Assembly (NCBI GenBank): GCA_035653615.1
Contig: DASRBN010000031.1
Span: forward strand, 62,001 to 126,000
Direction of reading: 5' to 3'
DNA: 64,000 bases
DNA from: Ktedonobacteraceae bacterium
GTDB taxonomy: Bacteria; Chloroflexota; Ktedonobacteria; Ktedonobacterales; Ktedonobacteraceae
This document shows, in pieces, positions 24,917 to 43,852 of this stretch (the stretch's first letter is position 1; each line of letters opens with the position of its first letter). A program made the translations under genes and the position numbers. The notes under the pieces were generated by a model. The model did no database searches and had not been told where the DNA came from. It worked only from the letters and a program-made list of their open reading frames with translations.

Positions 24917-26370
24917 GTCCAGAGCAGAGCAGCAAACACATAGAGGATGAGCAGATAGCAGCTTCACAAAGTCCTGTTCCAGTTAAGCCTGCACCAACTC
25001 CGTCAGGAAAGGGACGACCGTTAAGAGTACTGGCAAGCGCGGTTGGAAAAGAGGCGGTTAGCGAGGTTGGACAGGTGGGGAATGTAGTGGGACGGGCATT
25101 GCTCCAGTGCGAGAAGCTGACAAAGGAAGCGCTTTTCGGCTGTCATATGTGCGGCCAGTGTATTTTGCAGCAAACAGCCCTGATCTGCCCCATGCGCTGC
25201 CCAAAGGGAATGCGCAATGGGCCGTGCGGGGGTCCGTCCCTTGATGGCCGCTGTGAAGTCTATCCTGAGCGGCCCTGTATCTGGGTTGAAATCTACCAGC
25301 GTTCGCAGCATCTGGGCCTGACCGGTCGCATGGAGAAGCTGCAATGGCCGGTCGATTGGTCATTGCAGGGTACCTCGGCCTATGGCAATGTCCTCAACGG
25401 AAAATGGTTCACACCCAAATGGTCTGAAGTCTTAGACCGTCCAAAGCCCGCGTTGAAGGCCGGTACGAAGTTGGAACATGCGCTGAACGCGGGGCGGTTC
25501 GTGATAACAGCCGAGTTAGGGCCGCCGCGTTCCGCCAATGCTGATCTTATACGTAAGAAGGCCGAGTTGCTGCGTGGGAAAGTCGCGGCGGTGAATGTCA
25601 CCGATAACGCGCTGGGTATCGCGCGGTTGTCCAGCCTGGTTGGATGCGTGATCCTGCAAGAGATGGGAATAGAGCCGATTTTACAGATGAGCTGCCGTGA
25701 TCGTAACCGTATTGCGTTGCAAAGCGAGCTTATCAGTGCGGCGGCGCTGGACATCAACAATGTACTGCTTTTGACGGGAGATCACCAGCGTTACGGCGAC
25801 GACCCGGGGGCGATGGGTGTGTTTGACCTGGATAGCACTTCGCTACTGGCGCTGGCTCGTCGTATGCGCGACAATGGTGAATTGCTATCCGGCCAGAAGA
25901 TAGATGACCCGCCGAGTCTTTTCCTGGGAGCGGCAGCCAACCCGGAGGGCGAACCGCTCGACCTGCAGGTCTTGCGCCTGCAAAAAAAGGTGGCGGCAGG
26001 CGCCGATTTTATTCAGACGCAGGCCGTCTTTGACATCGACTACTTCAAACAATGGATGGCCAGGGTGCGCTCGCCTGGCCTGCATCAAGCAACCAGAATC
26101 CTGGTTGGCATCCTCTTGTTACAATCGGCGGAGCGGGCCAATTTCTTGCGGGAGCATGTGCCGGGAATGCGTGTTTCCCAGGCAATAGTCGACCGCCTGG
26201 CAAACGCGTCTGACCCGAAGGCAGAGGGCAAGCAAATGGCGCGGGAACTCATTCAATCGCTGGCCGAGATCGAAGGCGTCGCCGGCATTCACGTGATGAC
26301 AATTGCCTGGGAGGAGGCCATTCCAGAGGTGATTGAGCCGTTCGATGCGTATGTCAATAATGTTTCCTGA
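24913..26370 (+). CDS. MetV-MetF fusion: methylenetetrahydrofolate reductase
   Basis: Fusion of 485 residues. After a Ser/Pro-rich leader (1-40), residues about 60-165 form a MetV-type domain with nine cysteines (66, 77, 80, 83, 92, 96, 105, 114, 122; core CHMCGQC and CPMRC) that should bind zinc or an Fe-S cluster. Residues about 185-480 form the FAD-dependent MetF barrel, with Glu201 in ITAELGPP and LLTGDHQ intact. MetV and MetF are separate proteins in acetogens, where MetV links MetF to a low-potential electron source; fusion suggests the enzyme here does not simply use NADH. It reduces methylene- to methyl-tetrahydrofolate, supplying core-MetE, whose stop codon it overlaps as ATGA. Confidence 0.87.
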   Translation: MSPEQSSKHIEDEQIAASQSPVPVKPAPTPSGKGRPLRVLASAVGKEAVSEVGQVGNVVGRALLQCEKLTKEALFGCHMCGQCILQQTALICPMRCPKGMRNGPCGGPSLDGRCEVYPERPCIWVEIYQRSQHLGLTGRMEKLQWPVDWSLQGTSAYGNVLNGKWFTPKWSEVLDRPKPALKAGTKLEHALNAGRFVITAELGPPRSANADLIRKKAELLRGKVAAVNVTDNALGIARLSSLVGCVILQEMGIEPILQMSCRDRNRIALQSELISAAALDINNVLLLTGDHQRYGDDPGAMGVFDLDSTSLLALARRMRDNGELLSGQKIDDPPSLFLGAAANPEGEPLDLQVLRLQKKVAAGADFIQTQAVFDIDYFKQWMARVRSPGLHQATRILVGILLLQSAERANFLREHVPGMRVSQAIVDRLANASDPKAEGKQMARELIQSLAEIEGVAGIHVMTIAWEEAIPEVIEPFDAYVNNVS

Positions 26371-26710
26371 TAATTATCTATAAGTGGGCCACGAAGCATC
26401 TCGGCCCCTTCCATTCAGCCTTCTCACGAACTATAAGAAAAATCAGGTTGAAAGTCTCCAGCAAATCTGCTGAACAAACGCGAGCAAGAAATTTTGAAGC
26501 GACTGCCCGCTTAGATCTGGAAAATAGACGCGCGGTATGAGTACCCTATTCTCAGCTTCACCACATGTTTGTCTCAGTCTTGCTTCACCAGGCCATGCTA
26601 TACTCTCCATAAAGAAACTGATTTGTGTAGGGTTGAGAATAACGAGCGAAGGAATTGCAAAGACTCGCTTCTGGGAAGAAGTCAGTTTCTCATGAAGTGG
26701 AGAACAGGCG
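26371..26710. other. Intergenic region upstream of two-component pair
   Basis: A 340-base gap. GGGCC...GGCCC at about 26388-26412 might end the methionine operon but lacks a T-tract. TATACT at 26599-26604 could be a -10, but there is no matching -35 at 17 bases. Open frames here are antisense shadows. Confidence 0.4.
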
Positions 26711-30795: not shown

Positions 30796-31281
30796 ATGGC
30801 TCAATATAGTACAGAGGTTCGGCTGAATCCTGCTGATGAGATGATCCAGGTTGGCAAGCTACAGATCCGTTTCCTGGTCACCGGCGCTCAATCTAATGGC
30901 AGCGTCGCAGTCTTCGAGTTGACTGTTCCTGCTGGAGAGAAGCTTCCTGCCCCGGCACATAGTCACGATGCATATGAAGAAACACTTTATGGGCTCGAAG
31001 GGGTTACTACCTGGACGGTCGATGATGTATCCATCGAGGTGGGGCCTGGACAGGTGTTGTGCATACCACGTGGCGCGGTTCATACTTTCGCCAATCATGG
31101 CACGGTAGATGCGAAGTCGCTAGCTGTCCTGAGCCCGGCTGTGATTGGGCCGGAGTTCTTTCGCGAGATGGGTGCTGTGATCGATGCCGCCGGCGGAACT
31201 CCCGACCGGACAAAGATGGCGGAAGTGATGCTTCGACACGGCCTTACCCCCGGGATCGGTCCCGGGGGCATGTCATTCTGA
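30796..31281 (+). CDS. Single-domain cupin protein
   Basis: Small cupin of 161 residues. Metal-binding cupin motif 1 is HSHDAYEETLYGLEG (two His and Glu) and motif 2 is PRGAVHTFAN (His), so a metal-binding site is likely. Such proteins range from dioxygenases and isomerases to simple ligand binders; the substrate is unknown. AGAGGAGG stands before ATG 30796; an upstream in-frame TTG at 30778 is ignored. The last residues are odd: GIGPG is encoded by a perfect GC palindrome and GMSF-stop by the beginning of an intergenic repeat (TGTCATTCTGA), so the natural C-terminus seems to have been replaced when the repeat arrived. Confidence 0.85.
   Translation: MAQYSTEVRLNPADEMIQVGKLQIRFLVTGAQSNGSVAVFELTVPAGEKLPAPAHSHDAYEETLYGLEGVTTWTVDDVSIEVGPGQVLCIPRGAVHTFANHGTVDAKSLAVLSPAVIGPEFFREMGAVIDAAGGTPDRTKMAEVMLRHGLTPGIGPGGMSF
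31247..31268. repeat. Perfect 9-bp GC-rich inverted repeat
   Basis: CCCCCGGGA, loop TCGG, then TCCCGGGGG. It covers the final codons of the cupin gene and touches the repeat at 31271. It could act as a terminator stem, but no T-tract follows. Confidence 0.7.
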
Positions 31282-31326
31282 GCGCAAGGGCCGAAGCCCT
31301 GAGTGCAGCGAACGGGGAAGAATCTC
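31271..31326. repeat. TGTCATTCTGAGCGCA-type intergenic repeat, long variant
   Basis: Begins TGTCATTCTGAGCGCA and ends GGGGAAGAATCTCTC, with an internal AGGGCC...GCCCT stem that the shorter copies lack. It fills the whole gap between two convergent genes, supplies the cupin stop codon, and abuts the stop codon of the DUF499 gene at 31327. When translated, this repeat family gives the well-known HSERSEES-like peptide in false ORFs. Confidence 0.85.
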
Positions 31327-34300
31327 TCATTCCTCTTCAAAATCAAAGCTCTCGAAGCGCAGCGTGCGGCAGTTCTCCTCGATGGTGCGTTTGATGTCAT
31401 CGGGGACGGCAGGGATGGTGGCCTGAATTTCCAGCGTCACCTGCACGTCTGCTCCATAGATGGCGGTCAGGTGGCGCACGACCTCGTCCATGATCGTCCC
31501 GGCATTTCCCGCCATCATGCGTGGATTGAGTTTGATTGAGCCGTGAAAGCGTTGCGCCTGCGGTGTTCGTTCTGCCGGAAGTGTTGTCTGCTCCGTTGAG
31601 GATGGCGTTGCTGTTGGGCGGGCAGGCTCCAGAAGGGTTGAGCCGCCGCGCTCGCTGACCGCGGGCGATTTCGCGCTGCTTGCGCCGGGTGCCGTATAGG
31701 TAAGTGCCGTGGCGGCCTGTTGAGTGACCTGGGCGTCAGCCACGAACTGCCTCGCGGCGGCTTCGGGTTTCACTACGACGGCATTGCTGTTGAGCGCGAC
31801 CTGCACCTGCTGGCCCGCCTTGAGACCGAGATAGCGCTGGCGCTCGGCGTCGTAGCTGTCGGCGTAGGCAAACGTTTCCTGCTCCCAGGTAAGCGATTGC
31901 ACGCCTTCGCGGATGGCCGCCAGCAGCACCTCGGTATTCTTCAGGCGTGGCAGGTAGAGGTAGCGGGCGAAAAATTCGGCCAGTTCTTTGACGGTGACAT
32001 GATCGCCGCGCCAGAGGGGAATCTCGTCCATTTTGCCGCGCAGCAGGGTTCCGGCGTATTGCGTGAGCAGGAGATCTTCCGTGCGCAGCTTGCGACTGGC
32101 GTTGCTCGCCAGCGGACTTTGTGGCTGGGGCTGCAAGCGATACTCCTCGATGCTCTCCGGCTGGTGCGTATCAAGTTGCTCGGGGACAAGCAACCAGATG
32201 TAGGTTTCGGGGATGCGCGCCTTCACCGTTTCCTCCGCACTCTTCAGGCGCGTGCTGGCCTGGTTGCGCTGCGAGGCGTCCAGGTTGAGCGACTCGCTAT
32301 CCCGCAGGATCGACTCCCACGCCAGGAATTGTCGCATCCCCTGCTTCAAGTCTTCCAATCGCGCGCGATCAGCCGCCAGGAAGACCAGCGTGTTGCGGTA
32401 GTGACGCAGCGCATCTCCCCGTGTGTTGAGGATATCCCGTGCCTGTGCCATGCCGCTGCTCTGCGCATCGTGCAGGGCGTGGGAAAATCGCGGCTTGAGG
32501 ATCACCAGTCGTGCCGCCATGTCGTCGTCGGCGACATCGCTGCTGGACGCCGGGCAGGGATGCACGCGAGCAAAATCGCCGCGATTGGCCTGCTCGGCCC
32601 GCACACGTTCTTCGATTTTATCGAGTACCTCTTCATCAGAGTACTGCGCGGCGCGATCCTGCGCCAGGCGGGCGACCGTGGGCTGCGTGCTGTACCAGTA
32701 GCGTTGCCCCTCCACCGTCAGATAGGCCGAGGAATCGGCGAGACGGCGCAGGGCATCGCCGAAAATGGCAACGCTCTCTCCCGGCTGTGTGCAGCCCAGG
32801 TTGATCTGTCGCACCGGCAACCCCCGGTTCTGGCTGCGCAGCGTGGGAGCTGAGCCGAGGTAGATGGTGCGGGCCACACGGCGGCAGGCCGAATAGCGCC
32901 CCAGGTTCGGATTCTCACGGTCCAGGCGTGCTGGGAGCGCGTTCGTACCATCGACTTCGCTCTCAATCACCGGCACCCAGCTATTCTCCAGGTAACGGGT
33001 CAGTTCGTATTGCACTTTGGGCGCGGCCACCGGCACCGTTGCGGGCATGATGAGGATGCTGTTATCCTGGCCCTCCCACAGCGCATGCACAACCGCGGCC
33101 ATCAGGCGCAGCACGCCGCGTGTCCGCTGGAACCCCTCGATACTTGACCAGTCGGTATAGAGCCGGTCAAAGAGTTCGGGATGGATGGGATAGGCATGAC
33201 GAATGCGCCGTTCGTAATCGGCCTCACCACAGACGGCGGGAAATTCTTGCGGCTGGCCGCGGTAGAATTCGACGAAGGCTCGAGCGACGGCATCGCGCGC
33301 GACAAAGCTGGCCGGGTCGGCGATATTCTGGAACAGGCGACGGCGCACGATCTCAAAGCCCTCCTCGGCATCGGCCGGTCGCCAGGGCGACTCGACGCGC
33401 CCAAAGATACGCTTGAGTCGTTCGGCGGCTTCGCGACCGCCTTCGCCGCCTGTTTCGGCATCGGAAGCAGGAATGGTCGCCACCAGCAGTGTGCGCGGGG
33501 CCGCTTTGGCCGCCTCGGTCAGCGACTGCGCGAAGCTGAGATTGGCGTCGAACGAGCCGCCGGGCAGGCCGGAGATATTATACAGCTGGCGGGCATAGAC
33601 CACCCATTCGTCGATGAGAATGAGGCAAGGGGCCGCTGCCGCAAATAGTTCGCGTAGCACGTCCGAGCCGGGACTGACACCCTGCCGATCCGCCTCGGCC
33701 ACCATCGCGAAGCCATCCTTGCCGAGCAGTTGCCAGGCCAGTTCGCCCCACAGCGTGTTCACTATGCAGCCATCTGGTTTGGGACGCGGTATACCCGGCG
33801 AGAGTTCGTAGCCTACCAGCACGGCACGCTGCGCCTCCGGCGGTTTTGCTACTCCAGCTTCGCGCAGCACTGCGTCAAGACCGGCCAGTTCGGAGGCCGG
33901 TACGCCTGAGAAGAGATGGTACAGCGCCAGCAGCGAGTGCGTCTTGCCGCCACCAAAGTTGGTTTGCAGGTCGACCACCGGGTTGCCACCACTACCATCG
34001 AGGCGCTGCAGGGCATCGATCAGCAAGCGGCGCAGGCCATAGGTCAGGTAGGTGCGCTGGTAGAAGGCGCGTGGGTCGCGGTACTCCTGCGCGCCGAGGC
34101 CGCGAGCCACCTGTCCCAGGTCGGCGGCAAACTCGGCGGACTCGTAACGACCGGAAGCGACATCGGGATGGGGCGTAATCACCTCGCGCCAGGGACGCAG
34201 CCCCATGCCCGGTCGTCCCTCGACGGAGGTAGCGGAGACCTTGCGTGTCTCGTTGCGCGCCTGCTCTTCAAATCGCTGGCGCAACAGTTCCTGTTTCTGC

Positions 34301-34920: not shown

Positions 34921-34950
34921 CCATGTCATTCTGAGCGCAGCGAAGAATCC
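34921..34950. repeat. TGTCATTCTGAGCGCAGCGA-type repeat, internal copy
   Basis: A short copy beginning CATGTCATTCTGAGCGCA and ending GAAGAATCC, between the PD-(D/E)xK and DUF499 genes. Same family as 31271, 42677 and 43069. Confidence 0.85.
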
Positions 34951-35009
34951 CTCGCCCGAAGTTGTCCAGCCGCCCCGGTTTCAGCCCCTGGCCCACTTCT
35001 GGGTAATCA

Positions 35010-36026
35010 TCAGAACGAATCTCTTGCTCTCATGCTCTGGCAAAGCGCACGGAATTGCAGACGTAGTGTCTGAAGGTCTGCCCTGCTATCCCCTGTAAGC
35101 ACGTGCAGGAATTCCGGCACCGCCCAGCGAAACAGTATTGCCTGGCGCGCCATATAGATACCAACTGCATTGATATGAAGCTGGTCATCATAATCAAGCA
35201 GCAGATAACCGGCTAACTGATAGAGGTAATCCGCCTTCAGTTGCGGAGCTATGCTTGTTTTGATATCAATAAGACAGCCATCGACAACCAGGTCAGCATC
35301 CGCTCCTCCAACATCGCCGCTTCCTGCGAATGTAGGATTCAGTACGTGGGGCAGCGACAGGAGATGCTGGTAGCGGTCATAAAAGGCGTTGAATAACATC
35401 CCCATATCGTCGATCCAGGATTGCTGTGGGATAGCCAGCAATTCCTCAACGCTACGCTTCACTGTGGGCTGCATAAGCGGGCCTTGCAGGTAGGTATTGC
35501 TACGGGCGGCCTGTTCAAACAGACTCAACACGAAGCAATAACGATCCAGTAGGTGTTCCGCTTGAAGTTCCAGCCGTCGTCCAACAGGCTGAATGACCTT
35601 TAGTACGGCATCCAAAGCTTCAAAGAACTGCCGGATGAGCTTGAAAGGATAGGGACCTTGCGCGACCCCCCGCGTGATATCAAAGAAAATGGGGGTGATC
35701 AAGAGAATTTTAAACACTTCATCCTCATCTAAAAGGATATCCTGCTCACTGCTTGCGGGCTGTACCGCCAATTGTAGAGCCCCCTCCCATGCGACGAGTC
35801 GTTGATACGGTGTGATGGCGAATGCATAGCGTATACGATAATCGATAGCTGTACCGAGATAGATATAGGGATAGGACTCCCCAGTTTGAACAACGGGCCG
35901 AAGCGTAAGAGCATCCCTCAGCTGACGATTGGCATCCTTTGTCAGCGCACCCGTCTGTGAAAACTGTTGTTTGATGAACTGTCCCATGAAACTGGCCCTG
36001 TCATTGAGATGTGAGGTAAGCGACAT
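35010..36026 (-). CDS. PD-(D/E)xK-like nuclease, putative defence component
   Basis: Protein of 338 residues that would normally be called hypothetical. Residues about 240-275 carry a plausible PD-(D/E)xK nuclease core: Asp245 in GGADADLVVDG, then Asp254-Ile-Lys256 in CLIDIKTS, followed by a helix with YLYQLAGYLLL, as in RecB/Cas4-like nucleases. The N-terminal 230 residues are mostly helical and of unknown fold. AAAGGA lies upstream of ATG 36026. It sits 78 bp after the methylase and ahead of the DUF499 gene on the same strand, so it is probably part of the same system, perhaps its DNA-cutting subunit. Not all DUF1156/DUF499 loci known to me include such a gene. The nuclease call rests on motif reading only. 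Confidence 0.65.
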   Translation of the reverse strand: MSLTSHLNDRASFMGQFIKQQFSQTGALTKDANRQLRDALTLRPVVQTGESYPYIYLGTAIDYRIRYAFAITPYQRLVAWEGALQLAVQPASSEQDILLDEDEVFKILLITPIFFDITRGVAQGPYPFKLIRQFFEALDAVLKVIQPVGRRLELQAEHLLDRYCFVLSLFEQAARSNTYLQGPLMQPTVKRSVEELLAIPQQSWIDDMGMLFNAFYDRYQHLLSLPHVLNPTFAGSGDVGGADADLVVDGCLIDIKTSIAPQLKADYLYQLAGYLLLDYDDQLHINAVGIYMARQAILFRWAVPEFLHVLTGDSRADLQTLRLQFRALCQSMRARDSF

Positions 36027-42813: not shown

Positions 42814-42848
42814 CCCCGGTGGGCTACTGATAAACATCTCTTTCTGGG

Positions 42849-42944
42849 CAGAGGCGTATGGGAGTCGAACCCACCAGGGACCGCGCCGAGCGACCCCTCA
42901 GCCGTTTTGAAGACGGTGAGACCCACCGGGGCCCCTACACCTCC
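42849..42944 (-). tRNA. selC: tRNA-Sec (anticodon TCA)
   Basis: A 96-base selenocysteine tRNA. Acceptor stem of 8 bp: GGAGGTGT (42944-42937) with ACGCCTCT (42857-42850), two G-U pairs. D-stem of 6 bp (GGGGCC with GGTCTC). Anticodon loop CTTCAAA with TCA at 42910-42908. Long variable arm (GAGGGGTCGC...GGTCCC), and a T-arm with GGTTCGACTCC. The 8-bp acceptor, 6-bp D-stem and UCA anticodon are the marks of bacterial tRNA-Sec. CCA is not encoded directly after the discriminator G (the next bases are CCC). It implies that the organism has SelA, SelB, SelD and at least one selenoprotein elsewhere. It lies upstream of the defence operon on the same strand. Confidence 0.93.
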
Positions 42945-43068
42945 ATGCTGGTTGGTGGGAATATTTTGCCATTCCACACCTCGCTTGTCAAGCAGGACAT
43001 TACTGCTCTGATGATTCCTCAGAAGTGGGCCAGGTGACGGAAATCGGGCGGCTGGGCGGCTCCGTGCG

Positions 43069-43158
43069 AGGGATTCTTCGCTGCGCTCAGCATGACAGGC
43101 CCCGGAGACAGCCAGGTGTCTCCGGGGCCTGTCATGCTGAGCGCAGCGAAGAATCCCT
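43069..43158. repeat. 90-bp perfect palindrome from two inverted repeat copies
   Basis: Arms 43069-43110 and 43117-43158 are 42-base exact reverse complements around the 6-base centre GCCAGG. The outer part of each arm is the GGATTCTTCGCTGCGCTCAG/CTGAGCGCAGCGAAGAATCC repeat, the inner part a GGCCCCGGAGACA/TGTCTCCGGGGCC stem. It lies in the 254-base gap 42945-43198 between selC and the HAD gene, and could form a long hairpin or cruciform or serve as a strong terminator for the HAD gene. Confidence 0.95.
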
Positions 43159-43198
43159 GCCCATTTCTATAGAATCACCATATTACTGTTCTACCGTG

Positions 43199-43852
43199 TC
43201 AGGCGAGTTCCCGAATCCGTGCTACATTGACCTCGGTGAGGTCTTTTACCATCAACTCGGCCTTGCGCAAACCCGGCAGGTCGCGATTGCCCGCGACGGC
43301 GATGCAGCGCATACCGGCGGCGTGAGCCGCCTCGACACCCGCCACGGCATCCTCAATCACCAGGCAATAGACCGGGTCTATATTCAGAGCTCTGGCCGCC
43401 GCCAGGAAAATATCGGGTGCGGGCTTGCCACGTGCAACCGTCTCTCCAGACACAAGAACCGTTAGATATTGATTCAAGCCCAGTAGCTCGCTAATCAGCC
43501 GGATATTCTCCGCCGGCGTCGATGATGCGAGCGCCTGCAGGAAACCCGCCACGTGCAGTTCGCGCATCAATTCCATCGCACCGGGCAGAGGGGCTGCTGT
43601 TTCACGGATGTATTCTCGGTAGTATGCTTCTTTGCGGTCTGCCAGGGCGCGTGCCTGCTCGGAAGCGAGCGGCCCCCATTTTTCGGCCAGGATATCGTCA
43701 TTGCGTTTGCCGAAGGTACTCCAGAAATCGGCATCTGTGAAAGGGATACCCTCCTCGCGTGCCAGGCGTAACCATGCGCGCCGGTGTTGCTCTGCGCTAT
43801 CGATGATGACGCCGTCCAGGTCCCAGATGACAGCCCGTATGGGATGTGGCAT
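43199..43852 (-). CDS. HAD-superfamily phosphatase/phosphoglucomutase-like
   Basis: HAD subfamily I hydrolase of 217 residues. Nucleophile motif DLDGVIIDS is near the N-terminus, motif II is ASSTP, the Lys is in GKPAPDIF, and the last acidic motif is IEDAVAG. The four-helix cap between motif I and II and the DLDGVI(I)DS form resemble beta-phosphoglucomutase and sugar-phosphate phosphatases; the substrate is unknown. The open frame runs another 52 codons upstream, but that part would overlap the paaK-like gene start. MPHPIRAVIWDLDG from ATG 43852 is the normal family N-terminus, with GGAG 11 bases before it. It is divergent from the PaaK-like gene with a 116-base promoter gap. Confidence 0.88.
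   Translation of the reverse strand: MPHPIRAVIWDLDGVIIDSAEQHRRAWLRLAREEGIPFTDADFWSTFGKRNDDILAEKWGPLASEQARALADRKEAYYREYIRETAAPLPGAMELMRELHVAGFLQALASSTPAENIRLISELLGLNQYLTVLVSGETVARGKPAPDIFLAAARALNIDPVYCLVIEDAVAGVEAAHAAGMRCIAVAGNRDLPGLRKAELMVKDLTEVNVARIRELA

Follow-up and report, generated by a model that had tools for sequence, protein, structure and literature searches.

A perfect palindrome between a hydrolase gene and the tRNA-Sec promoter

The window, a stretch of 64,000 nucleotides, corresponds to C31:62001–126000 of a 6.59-Mb, 44-contig Ktedonobacteria MAG; the relatives of one of its genes assign it to this class. The element described here sits between a HAD-hydrolase gene, the stop codon of which (43199–43201) lies just past the element's right duplication, and the promoter of a tRNA-Sec gene. 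The features of the locus are as follows (gene calls were made with a simple in-house hexamer model).

42847–42944, minus strand: tRNA-Sec, anticodon tca, downstream of the element (ARAGORN and Rfam RF01852)
42963–42968, minus strand: −10 hexamer CAAAAT of the tRNA-Sec promoter (17-bp spacer)
42986–42991, minus strand: −35 hexamer TTGACA of the tRNA-Sec promoter, 16 bp outside the left end of the element
42999–43007, no strand: left target-site duplication ATTACTGCT, 8/9 identical to 43182–43190 (family-wide, duplications of 8 bp)
43008–43026, no strand: left terminal inverted repeat CTGATGATTCCTCAGAAGT, a match to the consensus CTGGTGATTNCCCANAAGT
43027–43068, no strand: long-side internal module, about 42 nt from terminal repeat to palindrome, found in many copies (d = 44–48 from the core)
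43069–43110, no strand: left palindrome arm (the feature originally reported)
43072–43097, minus strand: core REP-like unit TGTCATGCTGAGCGCAGCGAAGAATC
43111–43116, no strand: palindrome centre GCCAGG, 6 nt
43117–43158, no strand: right palindrome arm
43130–43155, plus strand: core REP-like unit, head-to-head with the unit at 43072–43097
43163–43181, no strand: right terminal inverted repeat ATTTCTATAGAATCACCAT
43182–43190, no strand: right target-site duplication ATTACTGTT
43199–43852, minus strand: HAD-family hydrolase gene (beta-phosphoglucomutase-like; gene call, with NCBIfam TIGR02009 slightly below cut-off)

An Rfam search of the window returned tRNA-Sec alone and no other family; the presence of this tRNA implies selenocysteine use in this Ktedonobacteria lineage.

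The palindrome at 43069–43158 is exact: all 42 of the 42 arm positions are complementary around the 6-nt centre, and the symmetry ends precisely at 43069 and 43158. The chance expectation for such a structure is ~3e-21 per 64 kb, and its single-strand DNA fold reaches −60.2 kcal/mol (z −19). Each arm carries a variant of a 26-nt core (TGTCATGCTGAGCGCAGCGAAGAATC), the two standing head-to-head and linked via a GGCCCCGGAGACA stem. An earlier note had described the locus as a 90-bp perfect palindrome with 42-bp arms and a 6-base centre, built of two inverted TGTCATTCTGAGCGCA-type repeats joined by a GGCCCCGGAGACA stem, and on both points it was right; it had overlooked the larger element and the many equivalent palindromes described below. 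Single cores (TGTCATTCTGAGCG...) occur in the window at 34924 and 42678, and an extended core, split by AAGGGCCGAAGCCCTGAGTGCAGCGAACGGGG, lies at 31270–31328 (plus strand); this form recurs elsewhere in the genome. The palindrome also gives rise to a spurious 146-aa open reading frame (43025–43465, plus strand; contains CHAERSEES), a likely source of mis-annotation of the repeat.

The genome-wide count of palindromic and single copies that the earlier note had proposed gives 59 exact head-to-head pairs of the core and, at up to two mismatches, 605 core occurrences (reversed control: 0), together with 52 exact tail-to-tail pairs. Four further copies of the window's 90-mer are present at 96–99% identity. 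Whole-sequence statistics below come from samples of 864 kb to 1.25 Mb (about one sixth of the genome) plus targeted loci. These numbers bear on whether the palindrome is a chimeric fold-back created during assembly, the one circumstance that the earlier note had named as fatal to its reading. The source is indeed a MAG, but the many independent copies lie on different contigs, the 59 exact pairs have many different centres, and the element also occurs in two other MAGs; an artefact is extremely improbable. A plasmid search for the repeat produced a single 28-nt match and nothing more, and a literature search with the core letters found no relevant description.

The palindrome is the middle of a 174-bp mini-transposon

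Alignment of the palindrome flanks revealed a motif, ACTTNTGGGNAATCACCAG, outside many palindromes: 147 sites were found with up to three mismatches, compared with 13 for a control. The motif forms inverted pairs 58–203 bp long, and direct repeats lie directly outside many of these. In the window, the corresponding ends are 19-nt imperfect terminal inverted repeats (family consensus CTGGTGATTNCCCANAAGT; 13/19 positions paired in this copy), bounded by the 8–9 bp target-site duplication. Since the ends occupy 43008–43026 and 43163–43181 and the duplications lie outside them, the palindrome is nested in a MITE-like element of 174 bp (43008–43181).

Perfect duplications at other copies include AGTACTCA, TATTTGTT and ACCTTTAC, and a further direct repeat outside ACTTNTGGGNAATCACCAG inverted pairs is GATTATC. 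Of the 25 copies in which both ends could be recognised, 6 show a duplication matching at 7/8 positions or better, against 0.08 expected from mismatched pairings. Two members, of 58 and 66 bp, carry the element ends and no palindrome, and the 58-bp one has a perfect 8-bp duplication; the palindrome is therefore unnecessary for movement. The family thus combines terminal inverted repeats (25 two-ended copies), target-site duplication, short length, absence of genes and multiple copies, as in MITEs. The palindrome is the middle of a non-coding mini-transposon with dozens of copies in this genome.

Parts of other copies are found in the window. Half of a second copy—a single core, the long module and a terminal repeat (34995–35013)—occupies 34924–35013 (plus strand). 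A degenerate terminal repeat, ACTTATAGATAATTATCAG, lies at 26367–26385 (minus strand) with TTGACA pointing outward at offset 9, and is probably an old, decayed copy.

Arm identity is a property of the family

Two features of the family speak to the exactness of the arms. Firstly, identity between arms is local. The two 28-nt arms of one copy differ at 0.67 positions on average, those of different copies at 2.79 (2,000 permutations, none below 2.30), and 43 of 73 copies have identical arms. This identity is confined to the palindrome and absent from the terminal repeats that flank it, which show 6.12 mismatches in 19 positions within a copy and 5.95 in 19 between copies. Secondly, copies with similar palindromes are no more alike in the rest of the element (r = −0.02). 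For example, the window copy and L006 share 94% of the palindrome and 49% of the long flank; for L004 the values are 92% and 62%, and a shuffled flank gives 48%. Taken together, the local arm identity and the flank-independent palindrome similarity mean that the exactness of a single copy is not a clock.

The centres vary greatly (71 forms among 73 copies) and are nonetheless self-complementary, pairing at 75% of their positions (30% after shuffling). Part of this pairing reflects a consensus common to centres of equal length, as between-copy pairing is also 75%. Among 23 copies of equal centre length, compensatory cells numbered 68, where column shuffles gave 25 and never more than 35, an excess that is independent of the shared consensus.

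The earlier note had attributed the exact arms to recent formation, active copying or selection on structure. Copying and/or maintenance of structure survive this analysis; recency as the cause of exactness is not supported, given that identical arms occur in 43 of 73 copies and that the flanking terminal repeats have no such identity. If the window copy had arisen or moved only very recently from a perfect master, this would account for the four other copies that are 96–99% identical across the palindrome. Against this, two-ended pairs with 91–94% palindrome identity have long flanks that are 43–62% identical (shuffled 48%), and the window copy has mismatches in both its duplication and its terminal repeats. 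We consider very recent origin an unlikely explanation. The mirror symmetry is a family-wide property, and alone it does not show that the window copy is young.

Copying between arms, together with exchange between copies, fits these observations; arms that covary would equally result from structural selection or from descent from perfect masters. Correction of quasi-palindromes by template switching is established in microbes (PMC8794818), and accounts for perfect stems and for multi-base compensatory changes; for the present palindrome, we infer the process. Arm-to-arm copying by template switching at the quasi-palindrome, plus exchange between copies, would keep the arms identical, and would weigh more in doing so than the recent birth of each copy.

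Element ends tend to lie at a fixed distance upstream of promoters

Across the genome, element ends tend toward a fixed distance upstream of gene promoters. In 18 of 92 distinct ends, TTGACA (at most one mismatch) starts 10–11 bp outside the end; at other offset pairs the mean is 1.0 and the maximum 3 of 92 ends. TATAAT peaks at offset 33–35. A full promoter (at most 4/12 mismatches) begins at offset 8–13 in 40 of 92 ends, compared with 2–9 of 92 in other windows; only about half of the ends have a promoter. Terminal-repeat and site hits with 3–4 mismatches include some chance matches, which would dilute the phasing signal rather than create it. Promoters are faced by either side of the element, with no orientation bias among promoter-facing ends (short side 17/38, long side 11/28). 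The promoters of tRNA genes account for 4 of 92 ends, making a preference for them suggestive only. In copies with clear duplications, these fill the first 8 bases outside the end, so the promoter is part of the target and not of the element. The window copy fits the phasing loosely: the tRNA-Sec −35 lies at 16 bp, off the main 10–11 bp peak.

Most palindromes (67 of 73) are intergenic, at a median of 51 bp from a stop codon and ~190 bp ahead of a start. A position between stop codon and promoter, fixed spacing to the −35 and compensatory pairs in the arms are what would be expected of a regulatory or RNA element (a bidirectional terminator, an mRNA stabiliser or an upstream activator site) kept in place by selection on structure and spacing. 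Such an origin is quite unlikely: the target duplications indicate insertion, the spacer, centre and flanks are free to vary, and occurrence among relatives is patchy. In copies between tandem genes, mismatches show no excess of G-U (3) over A-C (2), albeit in tiny numbers. No intrinsic terminator, a GC hairpin followed by a U-tract, was found. A hairpin RNA may form at the 3' end of the HAD gene; insertion and copying of the element would explain the palindrome with no need of a host function.

Candidate transposases and related systems

No transposase with matching ends was found in searches (not exhaustive) of this genome and the family, no member of Mutator families PF00872 or PF06782 was found in this genome, and no element ends at IS spacing enclose a transposase. 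An autonomous partner with identical ends is usual for MITEs but not obligatory, and orphan MITEs are known. Two end pairs lying 2–3 kb apart (on C19 and C31) were considered as an autonomous element and rejected, being neighbouring, independent copies around ordinary genes. The genome's ISKra4-family transposases were also rejected as partners, as their ends read GGGTGTAGG... and GGGTGTGTTTC..., not CTGGTGATT. Transposases of this family are found at L328 (C31:221867–223189), L332 (C42:13337–14528) and L329 (in G015), with ends GGGTGTAGGAAATAGTTG and GGGTGTGTTTCATTTTTT; those of C42 and G015 are split across two frames.

Two Mutator-superfamily groups, p-MULT 3 (ISLre2/TnGBS) and an ISKra4-like lineage of p-MULT 4, have been described as inserting upstream of sigmaA promoters at a fixed distance (PMC3942029). 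These elements have 8–9 bp duplications, a terminal C, inverted repeats of 18–39 bp and a −35 spacing of 15–17 bp; in the ISKra4-like lineage promoters lie on either side, and Chloroflexi are among the hosts of p-MULT 4 elements (PMC3942029). The present element shares the fixed distance upstream of the −35, the 8–9 bp duplication, the terminal C, an inverted-repeat length within that range and promoters on both sides. It differs in being gene-free and only ~0.17 kb long, in having less perfect terminal repeats, and in its spacing of 10–11 bp. With no gene, this different spacing and no matching transposase, we do not file it under the promoter-targeting Mutator family. Like the bacterial MITEs Chunjie, Nezha, Correia and QMITE2 (PMC10969869), it is short, non-coding, intergenic and strongly folding, with terminal repeats and target duplications; unlike them, it shows promoter phasing (~10–11 bp from the −35) and a homogenised REP-dimer centre.

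The core itself recalls CGTC-tagged REPs, of which TGTC is a listed variant; these have no dedicated transposase, and some of their dimers are nested in larger palindromes (PMC3733652). Shared features are the TGTC tag, A-T/T-A first stem pairs, a 9-position stem and head-to-head dimers. Differences are two G-A stem mismatches, a loop of 3 (not 4–5), a CTC/CCC tail (not CCA) and the location of the dimer inside a transposable element. Chloroflexi are not among the CGTC phyla of PMC3733652. Variation in the core is coordinated within the small hairpin (ATTCT/AGAAT to ATCCT/AGGAT; GCGCAGC to GTGCAAC). This supports the reality of the REP-like hairpin, although a single core folds weakly.

A tagged small hairpin in head-to-head and tail-to-tail pairs, with ~605 copies, could also be read as a repeat of the REP/BIME type that lacks any enclosing transposon and is mobilised by a REP-associated tyrosine transposase (RAYT). 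The sole Y1 transposase of the genome is a normal IS605 TnpA beside TnpB with no repeat nearby, and was rejected as the mobilising enzyme; the tag is TGTC, in which the repeat differs from GTAG-REPs with a RAYT, and terminal repeats and 8-bp duplications are not RAYT features. RAYT mobilisation is very unlikely.

Other palindromic arrangements of the core are present in the genome. In a second family, the core stands tail-to-tail between outer arms GATGAATTTTCACGATCAAAATCGG (L071:12066–12250 and ~30 other loci). At L116:17960 (C31:37961) and L129:14577 (C44:47577), tail-to-tail cores have other palindromic flanks and a longer loop (e.g., GATCGATCTGGCTCCTT).

Occurrence in other genomes

A scan of 29 genomes of the family detected the terminal repeat here and in two MAGs from a single other genus (G015 and G019), plus one weak match in G005 that has no core; a stricter pattern has no match in 397 other Chloroflexota genomes. 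G015 and G019 are also the only relatives with the core beyond stray copies. Their elements follow the same plan, with the core variant GGAT in both arms, and at least 4 of 9 ends are phased with promoters (e.g., TTGCCG-17-TATAAT, TCGACA-18-TATAAT). The bare core further appears in 74 viral-contig stretches (L148–L221) with unrelated flanks, sometimes as tail-to-tail hairpins. These occurrences suggest wide horizontal spread, and the unrelated flanks mean that the core has a life beyond the element.

A probable orphan MITE that carries a REP dimer

The work presented here establishes, by computation, the boundaries of the element, its duplications, copy number and promoter phasing, the local identity of its arms, and its occurrence across genera. 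With a probability of about 0.77, we read the palindrome as the central hairpin of an orphan MITE, a carrier of a REP dimer, moved by a promoter-targeting DDE transposase, perhaps of the Mutator superfamily. In this mechanism, a trans-acting DDE transposase would cut at the terminal repeats and insert the element beside promoters, its target choice probably guided by RNA polymerase/sigma or by promoter DNA shape. The best candidate class would be the prokaryotic Mutator superfamily (ISLre2/ISKra4-like). The head-to-head dimer of the TGTC-tagged REP-like unit at the centre would be carried as a passenger.

A more specific proposal, which we put forward tentatively and regard as possible though doubtful, is that these elements form a family of orphan MITEs able to recognise sigma70 promoters, inserting ~10 bp upstream of the −35 via a transposase class not yet so linked and carrying TGTC/CGTC-tagged REP palindromes. 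If true, the orphan MITE would give these palindromes a vehicle, where no other is known.

Promoter-phased insertion in bacteria has been described for a few autonomous Mutator-superfamily elements, and is here displayed by a non-coding MITE. Repeats have been little studied in this phylum; the dozens of copies of the element are a natural record of target choice, and its variable yet self-complementary palindrome centres offer ready-made data on arm-to-arm copying. REP dimers nested in a transposable element offer a testable answer to how CGTC-type REPs spread with no dedicated transposase.
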